Positions 3,507 through 27,452 of a stretch of 27,452 nt of DNA are shown here, in pieces. Numbering within the stretch: position 1 is the first letter of the stretch; every line of letters begins with the position of its first letter. Source of the stretch: a virus; the IMG/VR virus record IMGVR_UViG_3300028392_000246, positions 1-27,452 of that record; one strand, written 5' to 3'. Position numbers and translations under genes: made by a program. The notes under the pieces are model-generated. The model made no database searches, had not been told where the DNA came from, and was given only the letters and a program-made list of their open reading frames with translations.

Positions 3507-6500
3507 TTACAAGCTGGTCACTGTTTCCCACGCAGCCCCCGTATATACCGCCAATTTATTTAGTGTGGTGTCATATACTACTAGCCCCGTTGCAGGTGAT
3601 GATATAGCGTTCTTTTGGGTTGTGGTCATTCGGGGAGGAAGGAAGCCTTTAGTAGTGCTTGTTACATTTAGAATGGCACTTGCAGCAAGTGAAGTAGAGC
3701 CAATATTTGTAGTAGCTGCAAAATAATTTGGAGCCGTATTATTAGCGTAAAAATTCCAATTCAAAGAACCATTTACTGGTACGTTTGAAAAGAATCCTGA
3801 TGTATTATTTGCAGCACCTCCTAATGATGATGTTGCATAGAAGCCATAAATATTATTTACAGTAGAGCCCGAACCAATTGTAGACTGTGTAGAAGTAAAA
3901 CCACTATAAGTACCTAAAGTAAAAGAAGCTGCTTGTGTATTTAATACGTTATAATTACCATGTGCCTGGGAAGTTACCCCACTCTGTACTGTTCCATTTT
4001 GATAGATACCAAAAGAACTAACTGCTCCAGATATATTTTTACTAATAACAACATTAAAACCTGCTGACACTGAACCGCCAATTACTAACGAACCATTCGG
4101 TATATAAACATCACCTGCAGAAAATACTCTAAACTGTTCCGTTAATGTACCATTATTAGAAACTTGCAACCTAAAATCACTTTTATAAGTTGCATTATCT
4201 TTAGTTATTAATTGCACTCCTATCCTTCCAAAAGTTACTTGTGTTGCTGCACCTGTTCCAGTTGTATCTGAAGTAAATGTTTGATACAAATAATTATTTA
4301 ATGTACTGCTAGTATCATATAAACTTAAATAATCACCACCGCCATTTCTTGCAAATGTTGCAAAGTTTCCTGTTGAACCTATTACCTTCATTGAACCTGT
4401 TACTTGCAGCTTATCTGTTCCGTTGTCGGTTGTGCTTCCTATTAATAATGCTCCGTTGAGATAGTTGATAGCAGTACCGCTCATGTAAAGATTCCATTTA
4501 CCCGTTGCACTTGCTACTTGTGAACGAATACCAATATTCTGCACTGAAGTAAACGCCCCATTAGTAAATATTGGATTAACATCAAGACCTACCAAAACAT
4601 CACTATTTGCAGCAGCAGCTAAAGTAGGTGTAAATACAGTTCCTTGTGCTAAAGCAGCAGAAGCAGTAACACTAGAGCTAAATGTAGTTTTAGGTGCTAT
4701 ATTTAAAGTGAAATCTCCTGAACTTATTGTTCTATTTGAAGTTAAAGTTCCATCAGCTGTATAAATATTACTTGTTAAATAACTAGATGTATCTAATGTA
4801 AAGGTACCTGCCGCAGTCATTTTTACAAATGAAGAGGAAGCATAACTAAGACCTGCTAGTGATGTTAAATTAGTAGAAAGAGGTTGCCCACCTAAACCAC
4901 TCAAAGTATAAGTAGGTATATTTAATGTATTACTAACCAAAGTTGAAGCACCTGAACTTCCTGTTACAGTTAAAGTGATTGCTTCTTGTTTATTACTAAA
5001 GGTATTCCAATCAGTAGATGTTAAATATCCTGATTGAGTTGTATTTGCAACTTGGATACTAAACACTCCTGTTGTATTGTCGTAAGATAAAGGGCTCGAT
5101 GCTGATAAAGCAGTTAATGCAATGTAAGCATTAGGATTAGATGCTAAATAATATGTGCTATTATCATAACTTATTGTAGTGCCTGAAATTTTTACAAAAC
5201 CAGTACCACTCAAAGCTGGTTGTTTGCTGTTAAAGGTTGTCCAATCAGTAGAACTCAAATATCCATTTGTTGTGGAGTCTGATTGACTTATTGAAATGAC
5301 ATTGGATGTTATGTTTAAAGGAGAACTAGCACTTGTAATTCTTAAACTATATGCAGTGTTCCAATTTGTACTATTATCTACAATTGATGTTCCCCAAGCA
5401 CTACCTGTTGAAACAGCTATGCCTGCACTTGGATAAACCATTGAATTAATACTCCAACTTCTATTGGCTGATAAATCATAAGTTGTTCCGTTGATGGTTA
5501 GCTCTCTTGAAGTTGGGACATATCCACCTAATGAACTTGTTAAAGCTAATGTACCAGTTGCTGAAGGAAGGGTGTAAGTGTAAGTACCATTTGTTATTGT
5601 TGATCCTAATGTTAATTCATCTGTTATTTTTACAGTGCCATTAACTTGTAATCTTTGTCCTGAATCAGTTGAGTTTCCATTAATGCTTATGTTTCTAGTG
5701 ACACCAAATACACGTAAGGCTTCAACAGAGTTAACACCAAAAAGAACACTACTTGTTCCTTGTGAAGTGATGGTAAAATCTCCTGCTATTGAATTTGTTA
5801 CAAATTGATTTGAAGAAGTGGCTAATCCAAATTTTGCTTGATAGGTAGCACCTATCATAGCATTAGCCATAGATACTGATGGAGCATTTCCTGCAATTAA
5901 AAGATGATTATCAGGAGTTGCAGAATAAATATTAAATAGTCTTGCAACAGTTGTACTTCCTATTGATACACCACTTCCCCCATCATATAATAAACTGTTT
6001 CCTATTGTACTTCCAGTGCTTGTAAACTTACTGATATAATTTAATGTTCCTGTTCCTGTAATTGGATTTGTTAGAGTAGAAACACTTCCGTCTGCTTTAA
6101 GATATTGTGCTGATGTCCCACTAGGTATCTTATAACCTGTTGCAATAGAATAACCGTTTATTTGTATTTTATTGATACCGTCATCTATGATACTCCCCAT
6201 AAGTATATTGCTGCCACCTGAACTTGGGGCTATATACATTGCAGGAGTAAAGCTATTTCCAAACTGAATAGCGGCATCTTCATTAGTTTCAATACTAAAC
6301 AACCCTGTACCTCTATGCACGATTGTAGACGGAGCATTTGCTCCCGAATTACCACGTTGAATCCTTAATCCATAATCGGTATAGGCTGCATCACCTATTA
6401 AATCAAAATAAGCATATCCATTTGTGGTCCTACCCTGACCTACCTGCAAAGAGTATTCAGATAAATTACTTGAGCCGTCTATAAGTATCTTGCCAATAGA

Positions 6501-6956
6501 AGATTGTTTTAAGAATCCATTCCCAATAGTAGATGCTGATGTGAATACAGGGATAAAGTCAACAGTACCTGTTCCTGTAATTGGATTGGTAATTACACCT
6601 TGGTATTGAGGAATATTTAATGTTGATCCTATTAATGTGGCAGCACCTGATGTACCTATTGTTGTTAATGTAATTGCATCTTGCTTGTTGTTAAACGTGT
6701 TCCAATCTACATTAGATAAATAACCATCAGAAGATGTTCCTGATTGTGTAATTCCTATTATATTTCCTATATAAGTTATAGGAGGTGCAACATTAATAAA
6801 AGATAGATTATGGACAGTAGCGTTTATTTTTTGTAATGCTACTTCTAATGTATCATTAGTGTGTACACCTATGTATAACAGATTTTGCCCCTCGTAAAAC
6901 ACGCAGGCAGCATCTAATAATACTGGACAAGTTTTTGCAGAACAAGTAACATTCAT
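3507..6956 (-). CDS. Large repetitive tail fibre / receptor-binding protein
   Basis: I start this 1,149-aa protein at the ATG at 6956 (MNVTCSAKTCPVLLDAAC). The longer reading from 6998 begins inside a perfect hairpin. Residues 1-45 have Cys5, Cys10 and Cys18, then CVFYEGQNLLYIGV and a TNDTLEVALQKI stretch, an N-terminal module I associate with Bacteroidota phage tail proteins. The body is Ser/Thr/Asn-rich beta repeats: GYLSxxDWxTFNxKQ-like three times, ITGTGT twice, and several DxGxxxLQVxG units. The last ~47 residues (GFLPPRMTTTQ, AISSPATGLVVYDT, then a TGAAW stretch) form a conserved-looking tip. No C-terminal autoproteolytic chaperone is evident. It should extend from the tail and bind the cell surface. 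It lies between the cargo genes and the small-gene/lysis region. Confidence 0.85.
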   Translation of the reverse strand: MNVTCSAKTCPVLLDAACVFYEGQNLLYIGVHTNDTLEVALQKINATVHNLSFINVAPPITYIGNIIGITQSGTSSDGYLSNVDWNTFNNKQDAITLTTIGTSGAATLIGSTLNIPQYQGVITNPITGTGTVDFIPVFTSASTIGNGFLKQSSIGKILIDGSSNLSEYSLQVGQGRTTNGYAYFDLIGDAAYTDYGLRIQRGNSGANAPSTIVHRGTGLFSIETNEDAAIQFGNSFTPAMYIAPSSGGSNILMGSIIDDGINKIQINGYSIATGYKIPSGTSAQYLKADGSVSTLTNPITGTGTLNYISKFTSTGSTIGNSLLYDGGSGVSIGSTTVARLFNIYSATPDNHLLIAGNAPSVSMANAMIGATYQAKFGLATSSNQFVTNSIAGDFTITSQGTSSVLFGVNSVEALRVFGVTRNISINGNSTDSGQRLQVNGTVKITDELTLGSTITNGTYTYTLPSATGTLALTSSLGGYVPTSRELTINGTTYDLSANRSWSINSMVYPSAGIAVSTGSAWGTSIVDNSTNWNTAYSLRITSASSPLNITSNVISISQSDSTTNGYLSSTDWTTFNSKQPALSGTGFVKISGTTISYDNSTYYLASNPNAYIALTALSASSPLSYDNTTGVFSIQVANTTQSGYLTSTDWNTFSNKQEAITLTVTGSSGASTLVSNTLNIPTYTLSGLGGQPLSTNLTSLAGLSYASSSFVKMTAAGTFTLDTSSYLTSNIYTADGTLTSNRTISSGDFTLNIAPKTTFSSSVTASAALAQGTVFTPTLAAAANSDVLVGLDVNPIFTNGAFTSVQNIGIRSQVASATGKWNLYMSGTAINYLNGALLIGSTTDNGTDKLQVTGSMKVIGSTGNFATFARNGGGDYLSLYDTSSTLNNYLYQTFTSDTTGTGAATQVTFGRIGVQLITKDNATYKSDFRLQVSNNGTLTEQFRVFSAGDVYIPNGSLVIGGSVSAGFNVVISKNISGAVSSFGIYQNGTVQSGVTSQAHGNYNVLNTQAASFTLGTYSGFTSTQSTIGSGSTVNNIYGFYATSSLGGAANNTSGFFSNVPVNGSLNWNFYANNTAPNYFAATTNIGSTSLAASAILNVTSTTKGFLPPRMTTTQKNAISSPATGLVVYDTTLNKLAVYTGAAWETVTSL
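4982..6725 (-). repeat. Dispersed internal repeats in the tail-fibre gene
   Basis: Three copies encode the GYLSxxDWxTFNxKQ motif, at about 4982-5030, 5220-5264 and 6681-6725. A 20-bp exact direct repeat, encoding the ITGTGT segment, occurs at 6049-6068 and 6568-6587. Such repeats can recombine and change fibre length. Confidence 0.75.
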
Positions 6957-6983
6957 AGTAGTGAGGTTTGATATATAACAAAA

Positions 6984-7001
6984 TGCATGGAAGACCATGC
7001 A
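6984..7001 (-). promoter_or_regulatory. Perfect 7-bp hairpin in the leader of the tail-fibre gene
   Basis: TGCATGG and CCATGCA are separated by a 4-nt loop. On the minus strand the stem is followed by TTTTG. It lies 27 nt before the chosen fibre start. It could be a weak terminator for the cargo operon, an RNA-processing site or a 5' stabilising hairpin. Confidence 0.45.
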
Positions 7002-12095: not shown

Positions 12096-15000
12096 TTAAA
12101 AAGGTGCAGAGTTACAATCTAAATCTTTTTTTTCTTCAGTATCTCTAGCTAAAAAATCATTTATATCTTGTAAAGTTTGGTTTGGATCTTGTAGATCTTC
12201 AGAAAATTGTTCATCTTCTAATAAAGATTCTATATCATCGCCTAAGCCTTGGAAATAAGACATAATATGCTCATCTGAAATAGACTCATCTGCTGTAATG
12301 AATCCATTATCTATTATAGACTTTTGTGGTGTAAGATAGAATTCATTAGCAAACTTACCATCTCCCCAAGCATTAATTGCTTTGTAAATATAATTCATTT
12401 GTCCATCACCACGATCATAAGAACCAACTTTCTTAAATAAACCTTTTTGTTTATAAGAGAAATCTGCTTCTTTTCTCATCTTAGCTTTTTCCTTAGAGCT
12501 GATATTTTTTTCCCATGTATATACAAGAATATCATTCTCAGCTTCTTTAGAGAATGGACTGATTCTTAATAGTTGAGGAATATCACCAGATTTTATTCCA
12601 TTATAAATTTTCTCAGGAAATGACATATTCTCATTATATGTATGCTCATTATATACAGGATCGTATTTAGATTTAGCTGCCATGTAAGGAACCACATCAC
12701 TATAGTTCCAGAAGTTTCTCTCAAATACATTTAAGTTTTTGAAATCTTCAAGGGTGGATAGTTGATCAAGATCAGACAATGTATCATTGTACATCTTCCT
12801 AACATCTTCATAAGGAAGTAAATTAGTAAAAGATATATTAGATTCTGTTAAACCAGATTGTAACACTGATAGTTTAACAAGCTTATCATAAAGATCTCCC
12901 TTACCTTCGCTCTCTAAATAGTTTTTAAGTTCTGTAAAAGCATATGTTAATTGGTTTTGATCATACACCTTATTATTCTTATTTCTAATCTGAAGATTAT
13001 TCACTTCACCAGGAGCACCAAAATGTGGCTTCAAGATGTTAATTACTTGGTTATTATACAAAGGATGAGTTGAGTCTTTCTTAACCTTCTTAACAAAGTT
13101 CCACATTTTTTTAGCTGTATTATCTTTGCCTATAAGTTGAGATTTGATCTTCTTATTTAATCCCTCATTAGTTTGAACAGCCCAGTCAAATAATGTAGAT
13201 ACAGCTCTTTGAGAAGTTCTTACAAAGTCTCTATCATTCATTTCTACATAAGGAGTGAGAACATCTTGTAACACTTGTCTAGTTCTTCCTTGGTCAGCTT
13301 TTAACACTGTAGCCAAAGCATTTCTTATATCAGTGATACTATTCATTAATTTTCCAAGAAATGAATTTTTTAATAATGAATCTGCAGAACTAAATATTGT
13401 ATTTCTAGCTTTATCTAATTGCTCCATTTTTCTAAATACTAAGAATGGATCATTAAATGATGCTGTATCAAAGTTAGTACCTTGTGTGAGTTTAAACATA
13501 TGCTCAGCCATCTTAGCATATTTTAAGAACTCATTTAGAATAAATCTTTGTTCAGACTTACCAACCTTATCAAATGTAGTCTTTCCTATGTTCTCAAATA
13601 GTTTTTCTTCAGAAGGCATTTTGCTAGTGAAATATCCATCAGCTTTATACTTCTTCTGTATCTTATTAAGAACTCCAGTGTTAAATAACCAACTATATCC
13701 ACTTCTTTCAAGTTCACGTAAGTATTCACGAATGATTGGCTGGTTCATAAAATAGGCAGTAGTATTAATAGGAACACCCACCTTAGTTAAAAACATCCAA
13801 GTGGATGCTACGTTTGGTGTAGCACCTAATTCCATAATCCAAGGTCCCTTAGAAATATCTACATATCCATCAATAAACTGTCCAAGAATGTCAGAGATGT
13901 ATTCATCGTCAGCATTTGTAATCATTGATATAGTTGGCTTACCATCAATTTGATTATATTTCTCAAACTTAATCTTACCATCTTTTAAAAACTTACGATC
14001 TGCAGCACTTAGTAAATCTTTTCTAGCTTCAAAGTCTAATACAATAGGAGATCTTTGATTTAAAGAATGATTTGTTTGATTCACTGCAGCAATACCAATA
14101 GCATATTTCCCACTTACAAACGCATGTCTAAGTCTAGACATGAATCTTCTACCTAACATATTACCTGTAGATCCATAATCAAATGAACCAAGTCCCATTT
14201 TATCTACAATCTTCTTAGCTAAACCTTTTAATTGATCAGCAGAGTTAGAAGTGGTAAGTCTTTCAAAGTTAAGAGGATGACCAATTAAGTTTTGTAGAGA
14301 TTCAATGTATGCATTCTCTAGATTTCCTTTACCTTCACCTTTAGTAGATAACATACGAGGAACACCTCTTTCACTATCATCTACATTCTTTAGATAGATT
14401 GATAGTTTATCTATATCAAAGTCAGATCCAACTTTCTCAACTAGCTGAGAAGGAATAACAACAGAATCTCCAAACTCTTCAGGAAGAAATCTAGCTATTC
14501 TAAATACATCAATTGAGTTTTGTTTCTGTGTAGGGATACGAAAAGCTACACCATCTAACACGCCAGAATCTTTTAACTCTTTAATAAGTTGTTCATCAGA
14601 TAAATCTGACTTAAACCATCTACCTACCATAATTTCACATACACGCTGACCATCTTTATCTTCATAGAATTTAAGTGTGTCAGATGTATAAGCATTTTTA
14701 CCATTAATTTTTACAGCAGCCACTTTATTAGATTCTAACAATGTAGAAGGAACTTGCACCTTCATACCACCATTAATCTTAGGACTAATCACTTCTCTAT
14801 CAGCAATAGAATATAATACATTTCTAATTTGTTGATACGCAGGAGTAGCTTCAATAACCACATCTCCATCTTTAAACCCTTGTAATGCAGCTAGAATATT
14901 ATCATTAACTTCTCTTTTAGTTAACTCTTTTTTTAATGTATCAGCTATCTTATCAATCTTACCTAACTTATATCCTCCATCAACTTTTATAATATCAAAT

Positions 15001-18000
15001 GTTTTTAATAAAGAATTTACACCATTTTCAATCATTCTTTCAAGAATGTCCTGGTTATTCTTTATCTCTTTGTATAGAGGAGATGCTTTTTCTCTTTCTT
15101 CTTCTGTTTTTAAACTATACCAATCTTCATAACTTCCTTTGTAATCAATAGGTACACCTGCAGCCATAAAGTCTAAGGTGGCAAGTTTGGTCATTTGAGA
15201 ACCTCTTGTTACAAGATTATCATCTTTAGAAGGAACTTCAGATTGTACACTCATAATAGAGAATGGCACATTTATTATTCCACTAAACGGAGCTTCATTA
15301 AAATCTCCAGTCTTTAAATCATACAATTGATGTACTTGTTCAGCCCCTACTTTTCTACCACTTTCATATACAGCATAATCAATCTGTTGGTCTTGCATCA
15401 TATTATATAACTTAACAGCATTAGAATCTGCTTTTATTTCTTTAGCTGCTCTATAAGATAGAATGGTTAATGCAAACTTGTCTAATACAATATCATTATA
15501 AGTTTTACCATTTGCTTTATTACCAGATACAATAGGTTTAATAGGAGTGTACGTACGTTTGATTTGAGGATTACTTTCTCTTAATGTTCTTTTCTCAGCT
15601 TTAGTTAACTTTTGCCCTTTATCTTGTTTCTCCCAAGCAATGTCATACTCATATTGTCTTTCTTGTTCACTATCCCAATCTCCACTTCTTATTTTAAAAT
15701 TACGAGCAGCAGGTAACGAAATAATACCACCACCGTCTGTTTCAGTCCATGTAGTGTTAGTAAGAAGACTACCTGCAGTTACATCACCAAGAGTTATTGT
15801 TTTAAATGAATCAATATTAAAATCTGTATGACCAATGGTTCCCACTGCAAATCTTTTATTCCAAACATTATTTAAAGCCTCATTCATTTCTACAGAATCA
15901 GCAATAATAGATTGTCTTGGAGAACTGAAGCTTTTAATACGTTTCAACTCATCTGAATATTGATAAGGATCTGAATATAAAATCTTATGAAGCTCTATAT
16001 TATTCATGATATAGTTAGCAGATAATGCTGCCAACTCTCTATCTAGTTCTTCTGATTTCATTAATTCCTTACCAAAAGAAAGACCGTCAGTTTTAAATCC
16101 ATTGTCATATTCTTTTAATAAGTTATAGTCAGTCAATGTCTTCTTTAGAGATTCCTTTTCTCTATTTATAAACTCTGTAACTTTCTCATCAATCTGATTA
16201 ATCTTACTATCTGGATCAGTAAAGCTATCATACACTTGTTCAGCTGTACCTTCTTTACTAATTACTTCATTATGTAATTCTTCACCTAATATAGATTTGA
16301 AGAAACGTAAATCTGTAGATTCTCTTTGTTTTTTGCCTGCTGCTTTATCTTCATCTGTAAGTTTAAGTAGAGCTATAGGACGATTATCTTTAGATAAATT
16401 AAACTCATCTATAAAATATCCTCTAAATTTATCATGAATAGCTTTATAGTTTGTAAGAATATCACTAATGTTAATTCTATTACCCATGAATAACATCCAC
16501 TCAAGAGATGCATCTCCAGGAATCAAATTTAGATAATAACCTTCTCTATTAAGATTGAGTTCTTGTAACACTCTATCTTTATAGTTTAATTTAGATGCTT
16601 CTTTTTGTTTACCAGAATCTTCATCTACAACACCACCTGCATATCCTGTATGTAATAATTGTTTAGTATCAAACTCTGAATCTTCATCCTGTTCAATCTT
16701 ATCTCCAGATTCTTTATCAAACATTGAATATAACAGATCAGAATTCCTTGCAAATGTATCTGTTAATAAATATTCATAGTTTGTTCCTACTAATTCATTC
16801 AAATTATTAATCTGAGATAGATGATCATAAAGATCACTAGCAGCATTTGTACCGATGAATGTTTGTGTTAATTCACCATTCACATTGTAATATGTACTGC
16901 TGAATTCAGGATTATCCATCTTAGCTTTAATCTCACCCAATTGACGCAAACGCTTATCAATATCCAATGACTTACCTGAGAATGTTACAACTTGTTTAGC
17001 ATTAGCTATACTTTGTCTAATACCATTTACTGCCTTAGAGAATAATGTTTTCTCAGGCATTGTTGATAATTTATTATAATCAAACTCAATACCTATCTCT
17101 TTTAAGAAATCTACTTGTGCCTGTAAGCTATCAAGTTTTACATTTTCAATAGCTTTAGGATTACCATAATAAACATTCTTATATGAGTTGTATGTAAAAT
17201 ACTTACTTCCATCATCTATAGAACCTTTAATATCTTCTATAAAATCTTGTTGAGCTTGTCTAGCTGCTGTAGAGAAGTTAGCATCTCCCACTTGTATATC
17301 ACCATTCTCTAATAGATAAACATTCTTAACTATGGGAGATTGTTTTTTAAATGTTCTCCATAGAGAGGCAAGTAATTGTAAATCAGCTTTATTATCTAGA
17401 TCTCCAATATTTTTCATCTTACTAAGACGATTGTAAAGCTTAGTATATTTAGGATCTTGGTCAGCCATCTTTTTAATTCTACTAACCATCTCATCAATAC
17501 TACGAGAGTTATGTGTATTGTTCATTACACTAATAAATGCTTCACTCATTGGAACTAACGTATATCCTCCAATTGAAGATAATTTATTACTTCCATCTGC
17601 ATTAGTAACAGGAAGACTAGCTAATAGCAGCTTAATAGCAGCATTAGCTTTCTTCATATGATCTATTTTACTAGCATCTCCATAAGGATCATCTTTAGAT
17701 CTATCCATTGTAGGAATCAGGTCATCATTCTCATCAAACTCAATACCATAAGATTTGATATACTCTTGGTGCTTAGCCTGAAGATCATCCCAATTATCTA
17801 ATATGTTACCATATAAAATGTTATTTGCTTCAATTGCAGCAGCTCTTTCTTCAGGAGTTGCATCTTGATCAGTCATCTTTTCTAACTGAACAACATTCTC
17901 AGCAATTAAATCCCCTAATTCATCCTTAAGAGTTTCATACACTTGTGCTTTATTAGCAGTGGCCCCAACAAGATTAAACAATCCTTCATTAGACTCAAAC

Positions 18001-21000
18001 AAATCTTTTACGATTGTGTAAGTCATATGTTGCATTATATCATTAACTTGTTCACCTGTGAATCCAGCTAATTTAAATTCTGAATTCTCATCACCAATAG
18101 CACTATCTATATCAATAATTCCTTTCTGAGCAAATGATAATCCTGCTAACGATGGTGAGTACTGAGCATAATATCCTGTACCAATATTTTCAAATAGTCT
18201 ATCAGTGTTCTCTTGTGCATGTTTTCCAAGAAAGAACGTCTTAATAAAATCTAAGATCTGTGAAAAGATTCTAGAAAGTAGAGATTTACTTTCTGTAGCT
18301 TCTTGTTTTAATGTATGATCTCTAAACTCTTCAGCAAGTTTTTCTTTAATATCTTGATCTGTAGCTTCAGAATATTTAATCTCTTTAGAAGTAAAAGGAT
18401 CTGTGTAAGAACCTTTTCTGTTTCTAAACTCTTTTAGTACAGCATCTCTTTCTCCTTGAGAAGTAAACATCTTCCATACAGCCTCAAACACTTCATGATA
18501 AACTGTTCCTACTTCTGCATTCTGATATAGATAGATAGCACCATCTTTCAACATACCAAAGGCTAATTTACCACCAGTTGCTTGAATGATGTTTCTTACT
18601 CTGTATAAAGGAAGATTTGGTAGGTTTTTACTAATCCATTGTTCTACCTTTTTCCAATCTTCTGTTTGAAAGTTTTTAAAGTTATTAGCAACTTGTAATC
18701 TATAATCACTTCCTCTTTTACTATCTCCTTGTTGCTTTCTTTGATTAATCTTTTTTTGCAAATTAGGATTTACCTTAGGAGCTTCAGTTGGTTTACTACT
18801 TTCTAAAGCTTTTAATTCTGCATCAAAATATCCAGTAAGAAAAGCACTAGCAATATTTTCAATATCACCTTTGTTACCTTTCTCATCATGCCATTTCATT
18901 GTTGTTTGAATGGTACTATCCATTCTAGTAATCGAAACCTCTTTCTTCTCCCATCCTAATTTTTCAGCAAGTTTATCACTAATTTTCTTTGATAATTCAA
19001 TTATCAATCCATTTATACGTCTCCCTTCTTTTGTAGCAATACCAACTTCATCTCTATAAGTTCTATCACCACTCATCTTTTTCTCACCAGTCATAAATGG
19101 CATAGCTTCTGCTTCACCATCTTCTAATTTAACTCCTAACTTTTCTATATCAGCTTTCTTAGCTTCTATATCAGAAACTGCAGGAGCTTTTTCAGTCTGT
19201 TTTTGAGCTGGAGCTTCTGGAGCAGGAGCTTGTTGATTTCTAATTTTTGCAGTGATTATTTGTCTAATGAAACTCTTAGTTATTTTAAAAGCATCTTCAT
19301 CTGACATATCAGCTGTTATTCCTGTTCCAGGAATATTTTCTAATATACCAGTTAATTTTTCTAGTTTTATTTTAAATTCTGAATCAGAATCTTCATCAGG
19401 AATTAATATACCACTAGGAGTGTCAGAATTAACATCAAACTTTTCTGGATCTATACTAAATGTAATTTCTACATTTCCTAATTTATCAAGCACTGTTGTA
19501 TTCTTCTCTCCTGTAAGATCAAATAATTTAGATTCTTTAGGAGCAGTAGTCACCTTAGTAGATTTAGCTATAATAGGTTCCGCAGAGCTAGAGCTCTTTT
19601 TATCCATTAAAGTGAAGTAGATTCCTTTTCTGTTAGTATCTGTAGCATTTTTTAAAGGCTTCATTTGTGTTGTCAAAGGAATATCTACACCAGATCTAAT
19701 CTTTCCTTCAGGATCTTTAGCAGATAATAAGTAAGATTGATAGTTTTGCCATTCTCTGGTTTTAATATCATTACCATCTATCTCTAGAATCTCTGTATAC
19801 TTAGCGTTCCAAGGCCTCACCTTAGAACCTTTTGTTAAAGATGAATTAACATTATGATATAACTTAGATAGTCTATCTATAATAGCTTCTTTGTTCTTTT
19901 CAAGTTCTTTAGGATCTAGATAGAATTGTGTTTCATCTTTACCAATCTTTAATTTCATATTCTCAAAGAATATACTACTATATCCAGCAGCTTTCCTATT
20001 TCCTTGAGCATCTGTAGGAGTACCCCAATACACCACTGACTTTAACCAGTTGTATAGCATTTGAGATTCTCCAGATTTAAGATTACCATCAGTAAATAAA
20101 TTAGTAGATAGTTTCTTAATAACATCAAACATTAACTTAGCTTCCTTAGTAGTAAATTGTCTGTTGTCCAACTTAACCATTCCATTAGTTGTAAATAATG
20201 TAGGAAGTCCTTTGATGTTATTCATAGTGACAGATCCTCTTGTTTGAGCATCATCACTTGTAGCAATACCTACAACTCGTTTAGTTCTTAGTTGAGTATC
20301 ATTAACTAATCCAGCTTCTATTACAGGAGTTCTTGCTGAATAATCTCTTTCGAATTTACCAGAAGCACTTAGTTCTCCTACATAACTAGGAGACCCAAAA
20401 GATGCAGCTATTTGATATAAATCAGAGGTAGGGTTATTTAAGATTTGTTCTCTCCATTTATTATATTCTTTTTCAAGAGCTACAATTTCATCTTCTCTAT
20501 AATCAGCATCTCTAAACATAGAGTCGCCACCAGCCCAAGATAATTTTATAGGAAAGGTTTGATATATCGTATTTTCTAAAGTGGGTTTAGCTAATTTCTT
20601 ACCATCAACACTTACAAAATACTTTTCACCAGTTGTAGGATCTATACCCATTACAACCATTGCAATAGTTTTTGTAGGATCAATACTTGCGTCTCCTGTA
20701 CCTTTATCTTTTAACCATTGTGTAAGACCAGGTAAACCAACAATAGCTTCGTTACCAGATGTAACTACAACACCACGAAAGTTTTCACTTCCAGGTAGAT
20801 CATAATAATTAGCACCAAACTGATTAGCACGAACATGATGTGGAGCTGAAGCAGCCTCAGAATATCCCTCAACAGGAGGACTGGTAGAATTCTTAACTTG
20901 TTGATCTGTTTTTCTAGAATCTATTTCATAAGGTCTATCAAAATCAGCAGTGGGAACACTATCTTCATCTACAGTGGATAATAACTCTTTAGAAAGATTA

Positions 21001-23882
21001 TCATTCTGCATAATCTTTTGTTTCTCAACTCTTTCTTCTATCTCAGTTTTAGAATCTTCATTAAACTTAGTTTCTACAGCAGATATTAATTCTGGATTAT
21101 TTAATGAATTAACATATTCTAATTTATCAACTCCTTCTGTAGGTTTTTCAATACTAGAGAACTTCTCATCTTTTAATGTTTCATCAATGGCTTTATCCAT
21201 TGTTTTTTTAAGTTCTTCAGCATCTGCTTCTGCAGTTCCTATATTATATCCTATAAACTGTTCAGAATCTAAATACTCAGAAGTTCCATTAGGATTTGTA
21301 ACTTGTAATTTACCATCAACTGGTCCTGAAATGATTGTTATCTTTGGAGCTAGTGTTAATGTATTTTCATCTCTATGAACAAGATCAGTTAAAGGATAAG
21401 TTTCTCCAACCTTTAACTCTTTATCAATAGTTTTAGTAGTGTCATTTAAATCTACTTGTTTTACAGATATAGGAGCATCTTCAGTGCTAGGACTATTCTT
21501 AAGATCTTCTAATATCTTCTTGTTAGACTTAGCCTGTTCTTTCATAAGATCAAACGTATCTCTAAAAGTAGTTCTGTCTATAGATTGTTTATATGCTTCT
21601 TTTGTTAATTCTAATGCATGTTCAAGTGCTTCATTTTGATCTATTAACTTATTTGCTTGTAGTTCTTGAGGAGAAGAAGGTTTTTCTACTCTCTCTAATA
21701 TACCAAGATTTGCCAATTGAGCAGTGTTCTTCTGTAACTGAGAGCTAAAGAATATTTGATCTGCAGCATTAAAGTATTGAAAGTTCTTTGTACCATTAAT
21801 ATAATTAGCAGCAAGTTTAACTTCATCAGGATTAGTTCTATCTACATTAAGACTAGTAAACCCTGCATGTCTTTGATCAATAGCATCATGTGCTTTTTTT
21901 AATTCTAATACATGAGCAATATTTCTTTGTAGTTGAACTTCAGGAGTAACTTGTATACCTGCTTCAGTATCATTAACTCTATTAATATCTTCCTTCTGAT
22001 TTTTTGCTTCAAACTTTAAAAGGTTAGTTAAATACTCCATACCATTAGGGTCATCAAAAAAGTTTTGACCTAATGCAGCTAGCGAGTTAAAGTTTAATTG
22101 ATCTAATGATAGTTTGTTACCATCTTTAATAGCTTGCACCTTTGCTAAGATTTCAGTTTGGGAATCCATCATGGATATACCCATTGCTGCAAGTCTCTCT
22201 TGATTAAACTTAGGTTGAGCTTTGCCTTTATCATCAACGGTTGTAGCTATCTTACCATTTTCATCTTTTTCAAATATATCATCTGGTGTATAGAAGTATC
22301 TTCTTCTAGCAACAGCTTGTGTTATTCCTTCTCTGAATTTTTGAGCAGCTTCATCTTGTTGACTATAACTTTCTTGTTTAAGTGCTTTAGAAAGTTTATT
22401 ACTAGATTTTGCAGCATGACCACCTAAAGTCATCAACATACCTTGTATAGTACCTAGAGCAATGTTATTCTGACCATTAGGATCATTAACGTTATCTAAC
22501 CAATCTTTCATGATGCTACCAAATCCACCCTGGTCTTTTTCTATTTTATCATCTTTAATTTTACCAGCGATAGAATCTTCTAAATATCTACCAACAGCAA
22601 CTTGCATGCTCTCATTCTGACCATGTTCAAGTCCTGTTAATAATGTCTTTCCTAATATCTTACTGATGGTAGGCTTAGCAGAAACAGCTGATGTTTCAAG
22701 AGCTTCCAAAGTTTCAGCATTAAAAAACTTTTTTAACGCACTCTCTGCACTTTTTGCTGTAGAGAATATCTGAGGAAGTTCATAAAAAGAAGCACCTATA
22801 CTTAAAGGAAGTGTATATGCAAATCCTTTCATTGCTCCTTCTGCTGCTTTTTGTTCTATTTCTTCATCTGAAATATTAATAAGTCCTTGATCTTTTTGTT
22901 CATGTAAAGCTTTTCTAATAGACACTTGTGCTTCTTTGCCATTCAATCCAGATTGACCAATTATATTCCATGAATATAATTCGGCTTTTTGAGCAGCTTG
23001 AATAAGTCCTTTAAATCTTAAAGTTGCTGCAGCTTCTAAATCAACAGTTCCTGTAGCAGCAGTTTTGTAGATTTGATTACCTAGCATCTTACCTAACTTA
23101 CCATACAATTCAGGATTATCAGCAAGTGCTTGTATAGCTTTAGATCCAAGTCCTGTAGCTTTTAGTCCACCAGAAGCTTCATCTAATGCAGCTCCAAATA
23201 ATCCAAATCCTTTAGCCTCTAAAGCTCCAGGAGCAACCATAGATGCTGTAAGAGCAAGACGATCTGCAGCATCATCTAACCACCAACTAGTTGTAGTTAA
23301 TTTACTCCAGATATTACCATTTGTATATTTATCAGTTTTATATATAGGATTTGTTTCTTGCACCTTCTCTTTCCATACATCTCCTAAATTAGTCAAGAAA
23401 TTATCTGTCATTAAAGAAACAGCATTTCCATTATTAATAACATCTCCCTTTCCACCAAGTGCTTGGTTTGTTAAATTTGCTATTCCTCCAACAGCTGCAG
23501 GAATTGCACCTAATATAAATCCAGCGTTCTGTAAAAAGTAAGCTCCTGTTTTATTAACAAAGTTCCAACCAGCATTTGCCACTCTGTCTAAACCAGATTG
23601 TCCTTGTGCGTGATAGTCTTCTTGATCTTTAACAGTGGGATTATAAACACCATATCTTTTATTATCTAATAGTTCTTTTTGACTATATACAACATCAGGT
23701 TTACTGTAATCTGATGTACTACTATAATAATCAATTAAATCCATACCATTAGTCTGTGGCACACCACCACCATCTAATGTAGGATTAGGTTGTATAATAT
23801 CAGCAGCTGGATTGTATGCGGACTTATTATCTCTAGGAGACTCAGGAGTTATGATTGGATCTAAACCTTGAAAATCTGGCAT
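12096..23882 (-). CDS. Giant virion RNA polymerase polyprotein of a crAss-like phage (3,928 aa)
   Basis: The active-site loop is DFDID at residues 3154-3158 (GSDFDIDKLS). About 40 residues before it is FRIPTQKQ (3114-3121), mirroring the NRAPTLHR...NADFDGD order of cellular beta' subunits. In crAss-like phages (phi14:2 gp66) such single-chain enzymes are packaged and transcribe early genes after ejection. Residues 1-150 are low-complexity, then hydrophobic at 113-137 (FLQNAGFILGAIPAAVGGI), possibly for membrane passage. A Pro/Ala linker lies near 1550-1570. Residues about 1745-1855 are zincin-like with HEVFE (1796-1800) and EEF at 1851-1853; the second His is Glu. The C-terminal ~60 residues are very acidic. 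By my recollection phi14:2 gp66 is about 2,200 aa, so the N-terminal ~1,700 residues probably form a fused cargo protein. The gene is one unbroken frame, 12 bp after the 859-aa gene. Confidence 0.88.
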   Translation of the reverse strand: MPDFQGLDPIITPESPRDNKSAYNPAADIIQPNPTLDGGGVPQTNGMDLIDYYSSTSDYSKPDVVYSQKELLDNKRYGVYNPTVKDQEDYHAQGQSGLDRVANAGWNFVNKTGAYFLQNAGFILGAIPAAVGGIANLTNQALGGKGDVINNGNAVSLMTDNFLTNLGDVWKEKVQETNPIYKTDKYTNGNIWSKLTTTSWWLDDAADRLALTASMVAPGALEAKGFGLFGAALDEASGGLKATGLGSKAIQALADNPELYGKLGKMLGNQIYKTAATGTVDLEAAATLRFKGLIQAAQKAELYSWNIIGQSGLNGKEAQVSIRKALHEQKDQGLINISDEEIEQKAAEGAMKGFAYTLPLSIGASFYELPQIFSTAKSAESALKKFFNAETLEALETSAVSAKPTISKILGKTLLTGLEHGQNESMQVAVGRYLEDSIAGKIKDDKIEKDQGGFGSIMKDWLDNVNDPNGQNNIALGTIQGMLMTLGGHAAKSSNKLSKALKQESYSQQDEAAQKFREGITQAVARRRYFYTPDDIFEKDENGKIATTVDDKGKAQPKFNQERLAAMGISMMDSQTEILAKVQAIKDGNKLSLDQLNFNSLAALGQNFFDDPNGMEYLTNLLKFEAKNQKEDINRVNDTEAGIQVTPEVQLQRNIAHVLELKKAHDAIDQRHAGFTSLNVDRTNPDEVKLAANYINGTKNFQYFNAADQIFFSSQLQKNTAQLANLGILERVEKPSSPQELQANKLIDQNEALEHALELTKEAYKQSIDRTTFRDTFDLMKEQAKSNKKILEDLKNSPSTEDAPISVKQVDLNDTTKTIDKELKVGETYPLTDLVHRDENTLTLAPKITIISGPVDGKLQVTNPNGTSEYLDSEQFIGYNIGTAEADAEELKKTMDKAIDETLKDEKFSSIEKPTEGVDKLEYVNSLNNPELISAVETKFNEDSKTEIEERVEKQKIMQNDNLSKELLSTVDEDSVPTADFDRPYEIDSRKTDQQVKNSTSPPVEGYSEAASAPHHVRANQFGANYYDLPGSENFRGVVVTSGNEAIVGLPGLTQWLKDKGTGDASIDPTKTIAMVVMGIDPTTGEKYFVSVDGKKLAKPTLENTIYQTFPIKLSWAGGDSMFRDADYREDEIVALEKEYNKWREQILNNPTSDLYQIAASFGSPSYVGELSASGKFERDYSARTPVIEAGLVNDTQLRTKRVVGIATSDDAQTRGSVTMNNIKGLPTLFTTNGMVKLDNRQFTTKEAKLMFDVIKKLSTNLFTDGNLKSGESQMLYNWLKSVVYWGTPTDAQGNRKAAGYSSIFFENMKLKIGKDETQFYLDPKELEKNKEAIIDRLSKLYHNVNSSLTKGSKVRPWNAKYTEILEIDGNDIKTREWQNYQSYLLSAKDPEGKIRSGVDIPLTTQMKPLKNATDTNRKGIYFTLMDKKSSSSAEPIIAKSTKVTTAPKESKLFDLTGEKNTTVLDKLGNVEITFSIDPEKFDVNSDTPSGILIPDEDSDSEFKIKLEKLTGILENIPGTGITADMSDEDAFKITKSFIRQIITAKIRNQQAPAPEAPAQKQTEKAPAVSDIEAKKADIEKLGVKLEDGEAEAMPFMTGEKKMSGDRTYRDEVGIATKEGRRINGLIIELSKKISDKLAEKLGWEKKEVSITRMDSTIQTTMKWHDEKGNKGDIENIASAFLTGYFDAELKALESSKPTEAPKVNPNLQKKINQRKQQGDSKRGSDYRLQVANNFKNFQTEDWKKVEQWISKNLPNLPLYRVRNIIQATGGKLAFGMLKDGAIYLYQNAEVGTVYHEVFEAVWKMFTSQGERDAVLKEFRNRKGSYTDPFTSKEIKYSEATDQDIKEKLAEEFRDHTLKQEATESKSLLSRIFSQILDFIKTFFLGKHAQENTDRLFENIGTGYYAQYSPSLAGLSFAQKGIIDIDSAIGDENSEFKLAGFTGEQVNDIMQHMTYTIVKDLFESNEGLFNLVGATANKAQVYETLKDELGDLIAENVVQLEKMTDQDATPEERAAAIEANNILYGNILDNWDDLQAKHQEYIKSYGIEFDENDDLIPTMDRSKDDPYGDASKIDHMKKANAAIKLLLASLPVTNADGSNKLSSIGGYTLVPMSEAFISVMNNTHNSRSIDEMVSRIKKMADQDPKYTKLYNRLSKMKNIGDLDNKADLQLLASLWRTFKKQSPIVKNVYLLENGDIQVGDANFSTAARQAQQDFIEDIKGSIDDGSKYFTYNSYKNVYYGNPKAIENVKLDSLQAQVDFLKEIGIEFDYNKLSTMPEKTLFSKAVNGIRQSIANAKQVVTFSGKSLDIDKRLRQLGEIKAKMDNPEFSSTYYNVNGELTQTFIGTNAASDLYDHLSQINNLNELVGTNYEYLLTDTFARNSDLLYSMFDKESGDKIEQDEDSEFDTKQLLHTGYAGGVVDEDSGKQKEASKLNYKDRVLQELNLNREGYYLNLIPGDASLEWMLFMGNRINISDILTNYKAIHDKFRGYFIDEFNLSKDNRPIALLKLTDEDKAAGKKQRESTDLRFFKSILGEELHNEVISKEGTAEQVYDSFTDPDSKINQIDEKVTEFINREKESLKKTLTDYNLLKEYDNGFKTDGLSFGKELMKSEELDRELAALSANYIMNNIELHKILYSDPYQYSDELKRIKSFSSPRQSIIADSVEMNEALNNVWNKRFAVGTIGHTDFNIDSFKTITLGDVTAGSLLTNTTWTETDGGGIISLPAARNFKIRSGDWDSEQERQYEYDIAWEKQDKGQKLTKAEKRTLRESNPQIKRTYTPIKPIVSGNKANGKTYNDIVLDKFALTILSYRAAKEIKADSNAVKLYNMMQDQQIDYAVYESGRKVGAEQVHQLYDLKTGDFNEAPFSGIINVPFSIMSVQSEVPSKDDNLVTRGSQMTKLATLDFMAAGVPIDYKGSYEDWYSLKTEEEREKASPLYKEIKNNQDILERMIENGVNSLLKTFDIIKVDGGYKLGKIDKIADTLKKELTKREVNDNILAALQGFKDGDVVIEATPAYQQIRNVLYSIADREVISPKINGGMKVQVPSTLLESNKVAAVKINGKNAYTSDTLKFYEDKDGQRVCEIMVGRWFKSDLSDEQLIKELKDSGVLDGVAFRIPTQKQNSIDVFRIARFLPEEFGDSVVIPSQLVEKVGSDFDIDKLSIYLKNVDDSERGVPRMLSTKGEGKGNLENAYIESLQNLIGHPLNFERLTTSNSADQLKGLAKKIVDKMGLGSFDYGSTGNMLGRRFMSRLRHAFVSGKYAIGIAAVNQTNHSLNQRSPIVLDFEARKDLLSAADRKFLKDGKIKFEKYNQIDGKPTISMITNADDEYISDILGQFIDGYVDISKGPWIMELGATPNVASTWMFLTKVGVPINTTAYFMNQPIIREYLRELERSGYSWLFNTGVLNKIQKKYKADGYFTSKMPSEEKLFENIGKTTFDKVGKSEQRFILNEFLKYAKMAEHMFKLTQGTNFDTASFNDPFLVFRKMEQLDKARNTIFSSADSLLKNSFLGKLMNSITDIRNALATVLKADQGRTRQVLQDVLTPYVEMNDRDFVRTSQRAVSTLFDWAVQTNEGLNKKIKSQLIGKDNTAKKMWNFVKKVKKDSTHPLYNNQVINILKPHFGAPGEVNNLQIRNKNNKVYDQNQLTYAFTELKNYLESEGKGDLYDKLVKLSVLQSGLTESNISFTNLLPYEDVRKMYNDTLSDLDQLSTLEDFKNLNVFERNFWNYSDVVPYMAAKSKYDPVYNEHTYNENMSFPEKIYNGIKSGDIPQLLRISPFSKEAENDILVYTWEKNISSKEKAKMRKEADFSYKQKGLFKKVGSYDRGDGQMNYIYKAINAWGDGKFANEFYLTPQKSIIDNGFITADESISDEHIMSYFQGLGDDIESLLEDEQFSEDLQDPNQTLQDINDFLARDTEEKKDLDCNSAPF

Positions 23883-26560: not shown

Positions 26561-27452
26561 TTAGATAGTTTTTAGAGCTTTTACAATAGCACCATTTCTT
26601 GCAGGTTTTGTATCTTCTTTAACCTTCTTTTCAAAAGCAGCGACTGTTGCTTTGGCTTTTTCATAATCAGATAAAGTACTTGACTTACCACTTACTTGAC
26701 CAACATCAGTTGCTCCTGAAGCTAATTCAGGCTTAGTAAATGATGCTAAACCATTTTCATTGATAGCTTCACCAGTATTAGGATTAAATCTGTATTTATA
26801 TAAGTTTTCATAAATACCTAATTTTCTGTTTTCCAATTTGTTTTGAGCAATTTTAGAAGCAATAGAACCTAAAGCTTCTTGTGCAATTCTTTTAGTGTTA
26901 CTCTTAGCTATAGATTGTCTTTCGTATTGCTTATCTAGAATACCTAAGTTTTGTAACTGAGCTTGGTTTAATAGTTCTCTATTCTTACCATATGTTTGTT
27001 CAGCTGCTCCTTGGTTCATTCTAAATTGTTCTCCTAGCACTTTATTCTTCATCTCTGCAGCACTAGCCATAATTTGAGCTTGAGCACTGGGATTTCTTCC
27101 AGCAGCTCTCATGGCAGCATTAGCTTGTCCATCTATAGCATTGATTTGATCTTGTAAAGAAATACGTGAAGGTTGTCCTTGTAACATTGGTTGGAATGTT
27201 TGAGCTTGAACAGGTTCTATTTGGTTATTACCTAGAGCAAACATTTCTCCCATTAGTTGATTAGGATCTAAAGGCATTTGATTTGTAGGTCTAGCATAGT
27301 TAAATGCACTAGAAATAGCATCTGTAATTGCAGTGTTTCTATCACCTTTCTTTTTACCATCAGAAGTTGTGGTTGAAAACTTACCAGGTAAAGCACCTGA
27401 TTGATCTACAACATTATTATAAGGATCATAGTAATTACCATATTCATCTTGT
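26561..27452 (-). CDS. Internal virion protein, Gln/Ala-rich and helical (3' part; start outside window)
   Basis: The frame ending at 26561 stays open to the window edge. Upstream of the first internal ATG (27277), 58 further codons read DEYGNYYDPYNNVVDQSGAL and onward without a stop, so the real start lies beyond 27452. About 296 residues are visible. They include NNQIEPVQAQTFQPM, a PSRISLQDQINAIDGQ stretch and a long Ala/Gln/Asn-rich helical region. The end is basic (KPARNGAIVKALKTI). There is no membrane segment or catalytic motif. Composition and location directly before the 859-aa gene suggest another internal or neck-associated structural protein of a crAss-like phage. No specific role can be assigned. 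Confidence 0.72.
   Translation of the reverse strand, partial: QDEYGNYYDPYNNVVDQSGALPGKFSTTTSDGKKKGDRNTAITDAISSAFNYARPTNQMPLDPNQLMGEMFALGNNQIEPVQAQTFQPMLQGQPSRISLQDQINAIDGQANAAMRAAGRNPSAQAQIMASAAEMKNKVLGEQFRMNQGAAEQTYGKNRELLNQAQLQNLGILDKQYERQSIAKSNTKRIAQEALGSIASKIAQNKLENRKLGIYENLYKYRFNPNTGEAINENGLASFTKPELASGATDVGQVSGKSSTLSDYEKAKATVAAFEKKVKEDTKPARNGAIVKALKTI

Follow-up and report, generated by a model that had tools for sequence, protein, structure and literature searches.

A giant crAss-like virion RNA polymerase that shares one reading frame with an upstream cargo module

We analyzed a metagenomic IMG/VR record of 27,452 bases (the window), probably a fragment of a viral genome, in which one giant protein joins a crAss-like virion RNA polymerase to a module whose homologs in several other phages are separate cargo proteins. 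Our preferred reading, to which we give a probability of about 0.8, is that the chain is a virion RNA polymerase packaged and ejected with its cargo module attached, the two acting together, and that cutting of the chain is not required. For this phage the proposal draws on homologies, gene order and alternative gene joints, and on analogy with crAss001 and phi14:2. The comparison points to a single machine for transcription and ejection that different crAss-like groups divide into genes at different places. The frame of 3,928 codons claimed by an earlier sequence-only reading, which had not given its strand, was confirmed and lies on the minus strand (Table 1); it is closely spaced with an 859-aa and a 1,670-aa gene, also on the minus strand.

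Table 1. Features of the giant frame and its neighbors; residue numbers are those of the giant protein, and A, B and C denote the upstream cargo module, the polymerase and the third protein of the RNA polymerase block.
Feature	Coordinates	Strand	Basis or remark
Giant virion protein, A + zincin-like + RNA polymerase (B), one frame	12096..23882	minus	3,928 aa, ATG start
N-terminal cargo module, residues 1-520	22323..23882	minus	hhalign matches to separate phage proteins
Weak hydrophobic segment, residues 120-138	23469..23525	minus	mean Kyte-Doolittle 1.56 over 19 residues
Hypervariable stretch, residues 1500-1690	18813..19385	minus	alignment, no invariant column; includes the Pro/Ala run
Zincin-like domain, residues 1730-1990	17913..18695	minus	matches to crAss001 gp47 C-terminus, cr4_1 and cr108_1; invariant H, E, E
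N-terminal part of polymerase module, residues 2050-2600	16083..17735	minus	matches cr108_1 gp606 1773-2338
RNA polymerase core, residues 2590-3560	13203..16115	minus	profile and predicted-structure match to 6VR4
DFDID active-site motif, residues 3154-3158	14409..14423	minus	motif in sequence; aligned with 6VR4
P0003, upstream cargo-type protein, 859 aa	23895..26474	minus	N-terminus homologous to Lbo-JY46 XAI97383.1
P0002, third RNA polymerase block protein (C), 1,670 aa	7074..12086	minus	homologous to cr108_1 gp608, cr4_1 gp27, phi14:2 gp076, crAss001 gp49
P0005, conserved upstream protein	26561..27451	minus	frame open at window edge

The polymerase core

Scans of the window's proteins against PHROGs and Pfam, a phmmer search with the single giant protein against the PDB and a tblastn search with its N-terminal half against named phages gave nothing useful here, and only profiles gave matches where these searches failed. 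We built a profile of the core from 27 sequences, the window included, that are distinct below 97% identity, and ran it with hmmsearch against 177,635 PDB sequences. It returned a single match, 6VR4, the phi14:2 RNA polymerase (E=8.5e-27), with GSDFDIDK and RIPxQxQxS in register between the two; the 6VR4 protein (gp66) is gp077 in the phi14:2 record. An AlphaFold2 model of the core (pLDDT 72.6, pTM 0.60) likewise had 6VR4 as its sole significant Foldseek match in the PDB (E=5.6e-21, probability 1.00, TMq 0.51), and profile-to-sequence comparison also tied the core to crAss001 gp50, p-crAssphage gp44, crAss002 gp33, Fpv1 and cr4_1. DFDID is identical in 33/33 sequences (the window and its relatives), lies 80% along the chain and is preceded by FRIPTQKQ (residues 3114-3121, 14520-14543). 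On these profile and predicted-structure matches we identify the core of the giant protein as a crAss-like virion RNA polymerase. The sequence-only reading had assigned this identity and had placed both motifs, and the 80% position, exactly where we find them; the comparison it had proposed, of a predicted core structure with phi14:2 gp66, also came out in its favor. Neither a different fold of the DFDID region nor a match of the N-terminal half to ordinary polymerase domains, the two outcomes it had named as contrary, was found.

The zincin-like domain, the linker and the cargo module

The last 327 residues of crAss001 gp47 align with residues 1690-2050, as do internal parts of cr4_1 gp26 and cr108_1 gp606. 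An HExxH motif occurs near the C-termini of crAss002 gp32 and p-crAssphage gp45; the annotation of the latter describes a fusion to a zincin protease. By these matches the zincin-like domain is part of the upstream cargo subunit in the split phages. Since it matches the C-terminus of the upstream protein, the predicted joint between cargo and polymerase comes after it, at about residue 1990-2050. A Pro/Ala linker, as proposed previously, does exist (residues 1550-1568), but it is not the ancestral joint and is ruled out as the point of fusion, because the zincin-like domain beyond it belongs to the upstream subunit.

The motif itself reads HEVFE in the window (residues 1796-1800) and is followed by KEKLAEE (1846-1852). 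Its histidine and glutamate never vary within the clade, nor does a pair of glutamates some 50 residues further on, while the last motif residue is His in 10/33 sequences and Glu in 23/33. The tree places 4 switches between HExxH and HExxE, and well-supported branches require no fewer than 3 of these; outside the clade the motif is HExxH, with the exception of a Chitinophaga prophage relative (HExxE). The domain had been called degenerate, which suits the HExxE of the window and of most of the clade but is too strong for a family in which nearly a third of the members keep an intact HExxH. The domain seems to be constrained, with a single ligand free to vary, and not to be simply decaying. Its model is poor (pLDDT 61), with strands followed by two motif-bearing helices, and a fold search of this model against the PDB returned no match.

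A domain of this kind lying between the two modules, with its H-E pair and a downstream glutamate kept throughout, could mean that the chain is a precursor, which the zincin-like domain or another protease would cut in the head or after ejection and so free the cargo from the polymerase. Zincin-like domains have been proposed to process phage polyvalent proteins, and DdrB of phage P1 is cut before packaging (PMC5512222); moreover, the modules are able to exist separately, as they do in split relatives. Against this, the last HExxH residue has been exchanged repeatedly, no zincin motif is detectable in phi14:2, and the sole hypervariable linker precedes the domain and offers no invariant column. 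The same 2017 survey contrasts DdrB with the N4 virion RNA polymerase, where processing is only a possibility (PMC5512222). We therefore consider a precursor unlikely, and favor a chain that works uncut.

At the other end of the protein, hhalign aligned residues 1-520 with crAss001 gp47 1-574 (probability 99.95), Leptolyngbya phage Lbo-JY46 XAI97382.1 (1,552 aa) 1-534 (99.86), phi14:2 gp078 1-436 (99.29) and crAss002 gp32 (91.5), whereas reversed and shuffled controls gave a probability of at most 1.04 in any hhalign comparison tried. Record annotation lists phi14:2 gp076-gp078 as virion proteins from MS/MS; gp47, gp49 and gp50 were detected in crAss001 virions by mass spectrometry, and gp47 was named RNA-polymerase-associated cargo (PMC10172136). 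Because gp078 and gp47 are separate virion proteins, these matches support the fusion of a cargo protein to the polymerase. The suspicion that a separate cargo protein had been fused here was thus upheld by the very check suggested for it, a profile comparison of the N-terminus with crAss-like cargo proteins. Residues 520-1500 had no counterpart in the split crAss-like relatives and a weak match in Lbo-JY46 only. The N-terminal hydrophobic segment reported before is present, if weak; at the same place and threshold it recurs only in the closest of the distinct relatives, and so is not conserved.

One could still argue that nothing was fused and that the N-terminal 1,700 or so residues are ordinary internal domains of the polymerase, as the single frame in all close relatives would allow. 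This is very improbable, as phi14:2, crAss001 and crAss002 each encode the N-terminal homolog in a gene of its own, and a further match is a gene of a cyanophage (Lbo-JY46) that has no polymerase match.

Gene joints among relatives and the proposed working of the chain

When the C-terminal 2,029 aa served as query, 32 IMG/VR loci were recovered. Each has the homologous frame as one ORF, complete in 30 (3,735-4,821 aa) and truncated at a contig end in the other two. An N-terminal-side search (A3) yielded 13 loci, some on the same contigs as the former. Of the 13, 10 have the N-terminus and the polymerase in a single frame, 2 have a frame that reaches the contig end ahead of the polymerase, and one (L087) has a frame broken inside the polymerase. 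No stand-alone N-terminal gene appeared in either IMG/VR search. The metagenomic origin of the window might suggest that assembly or frame errors created the long frame, but this is hardly credible, as 32 other contigs and an isolate chromosome have it too; a chance frame is excluded because the whole frame is kept in the 32 IMG/VR loci.

The fusion is not unusually large, contrary to the sequence-only reading, for a single frame is found in all the environmental relatives and in the five Suoliviridae genomes read (5/5), whose polymerase genes (cr4_1 gp26, cr52_1 gp34, cr115_1 gp52, and those of cr118_1 and cr55_1) encode 4,464-4,946 aa with the zincin motif followed by DFDID. In these the zincin-like domain lies about 1,430-1,530 residues ahead of DFDID (1,358 in the window), DFDID falls at 65-79% of the chain and the C protein is the next gene, all much as in the window. 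They differ from it in their intact HExxH, in a first 500 residues that give only a short weak match and, for cr4_1, cr52_1 and cr115_1, in reading TAG as sense. Flavobacterium phage Fpv1 also has the core in one giant frame (ANB40275.1, structural protein, 4,401 aa), but its N-terminal part has no profile match and no zincin motif lies ahead of the core. The joined polymerase chain is already known as a normal form in several crAss-like groups: a 2023 review gives crAss-like RNA polymerase genes of up to ~6,000 aa (PMC10136315), and in the description by Yutin et al. the transcription block consists of several large proteins with multiple domains (PMC7886860).

Comparison of the groups revealed four arrangements, A/B/C, A/BC, AB/C and ABC (a slash marks a gene boundary). 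Steigviridae phi14:2, crAss001 and DAC15 carry three genes (A/B/C), while cr108_1, of the same family, has a joined frame that is interrupted. In phi14:2 the homologous core, the DFDID and RIPxQxQ motifs and the gene order are as in the window, and the N-terminus of gp078 resembles residues 1-520; the difference lies in the two separate genes (1,797 and 2,180 aa), which overlap by one base. Among Intestiviridae, p-crAssphage (KP06_gp45 and gp44) and crAss002 (gp32 and gp33), and by gene length also Rudgehvirus jaberico and cr107_1, are A/BC: the three modules are those of the window, but the polymerase is joined to the downstream C and not to the upstream A. All modules, including a P0002-type C, stand in one 5,485-aa frame in a prophage of Chitinophaga sp. 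YR573 (ABC). A one-off fusion, which we also considered, is ruled out by the fused frame in the environmental relatives, the Suoliviridae and this prophage.

Differing joints are what one would expect of parts that work as one complex; they tell which parts act together and suggest one machine whose giant joined form is functional uncut. By analogy with crAss001 and phi14:2 (PMC10172136, PMC10136315), the chain would be packed in the head close to the portal, would follow the smaller cargo proteins through the tail, partly unfolded and presumably with its N-terminus leading, and would refold in the host cytoplasm, where the polymerase would transcribe early phage genes. The upstream module would travel joined to the polymerase and act with it, probably with no obligatory cleavage. 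The giant virion RNA polymerase of coliphage N4 (gp50, ~3,500 aa) is an analogy and not a member of the group, since it is an unrelated single-subunit polymerase; it too carries a zincin-like domain of unsettled function (PMC12633501, PMC5512222), placed after the polymerase and not before it as in the window. Thermus phage P23-45 (PMC10770324) likewise combines a cellular-like RNA polymerase and a virion protein in a giant virion chain, but there the partner is the tail tape measure protein and the polymerase is at the N-terminus.

The polymerase core is interrupted in cr108_1 (L034, 6465-18055) and in L087 (9644-21107), where two ORFs lie ~70-290 bases apart, possibly owing to an intron or a similar insertion.

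Kinship, host and neighboring genes

Membership in the Crassvirales was assessed through relatives, as the window does not carry the genes concerned: their TerL, portal, MCP and IHF-like genes stand in crAss order, which assigns the phage to this order by homology. Among the structural genes of a 125-kb relative (L012 record), which include terminase, portal and capsid, the majority match Fpv1 and some match phi14:2 or crAss001. In relative G001 the portal matches phi14:2 gp104 (E=1.4e-36) and MCP and TerL match Fpv1, and in the Chitinophaga prophage a TerL-like protein matches phi14:2 gp105 (E=6e-26) and IHF matches crAss001 gp42 and phi14:2 gp084. The crAss001 major capsid protein, used as a single query sequence in a search that had no positive control, matched nothing in 10 relatives. 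The structural genes of the relatives are closest to those of Fpv1, which has the most in common with them among the three named phages compared and whose record gives no family. A Bacteroidota host is likely for the phage of the window.

The crAss-like Chitinophaga prophage lies in the chromosome of an isolate (NZ_FOJF01000001.1, ~3,692,000-3,768,300; L063, L093-L099), with genes for TerL, portal, MCP, IHF, the giant polymerase chain and a DnaB-type helicase. A tyrosine integrase adjoins tRNA-Gln; no attachment-site repeat was found within the stretch searched. If the prophage is inducible, culture work could address whether the giant chain is packaged and whether it is cleaved.

Lbo-JY46 (L036, 16477-33444) carries homologs of P0005, P0003 and the N-terminal module in the order of the window, together with a weak match to the C module and a 2,748-aa protein with HExxH motifs and a GNAT domain. 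The polymerase core had no match anywhere in its record; a search of it for T7-like RNA polymerase families also missed the positive controls and is uninformative. It is conceivable, and we raise it only tentatively, that the N-terminal module and its neighbors form a polymerase-independent ejection unit found across phages of different bacterial phyla, to which the polymerase became attached by fusion, and that the zincin-like domain is a metal-binding switch or a protease with repeated His to Glu ligand exchange in the clade.

Elsewhere in the window, also on the minus strand, a 1,163-aa protein (3507-6998) with a high content of Ser, Thr and Gly and recurring motifs such as GYLSxxDWNTFNxKQ is probably a fiber or appendage protein, and a phage lysozyme (Pfam PF00959, E=2.4e-32) is encoded at 978-1451.
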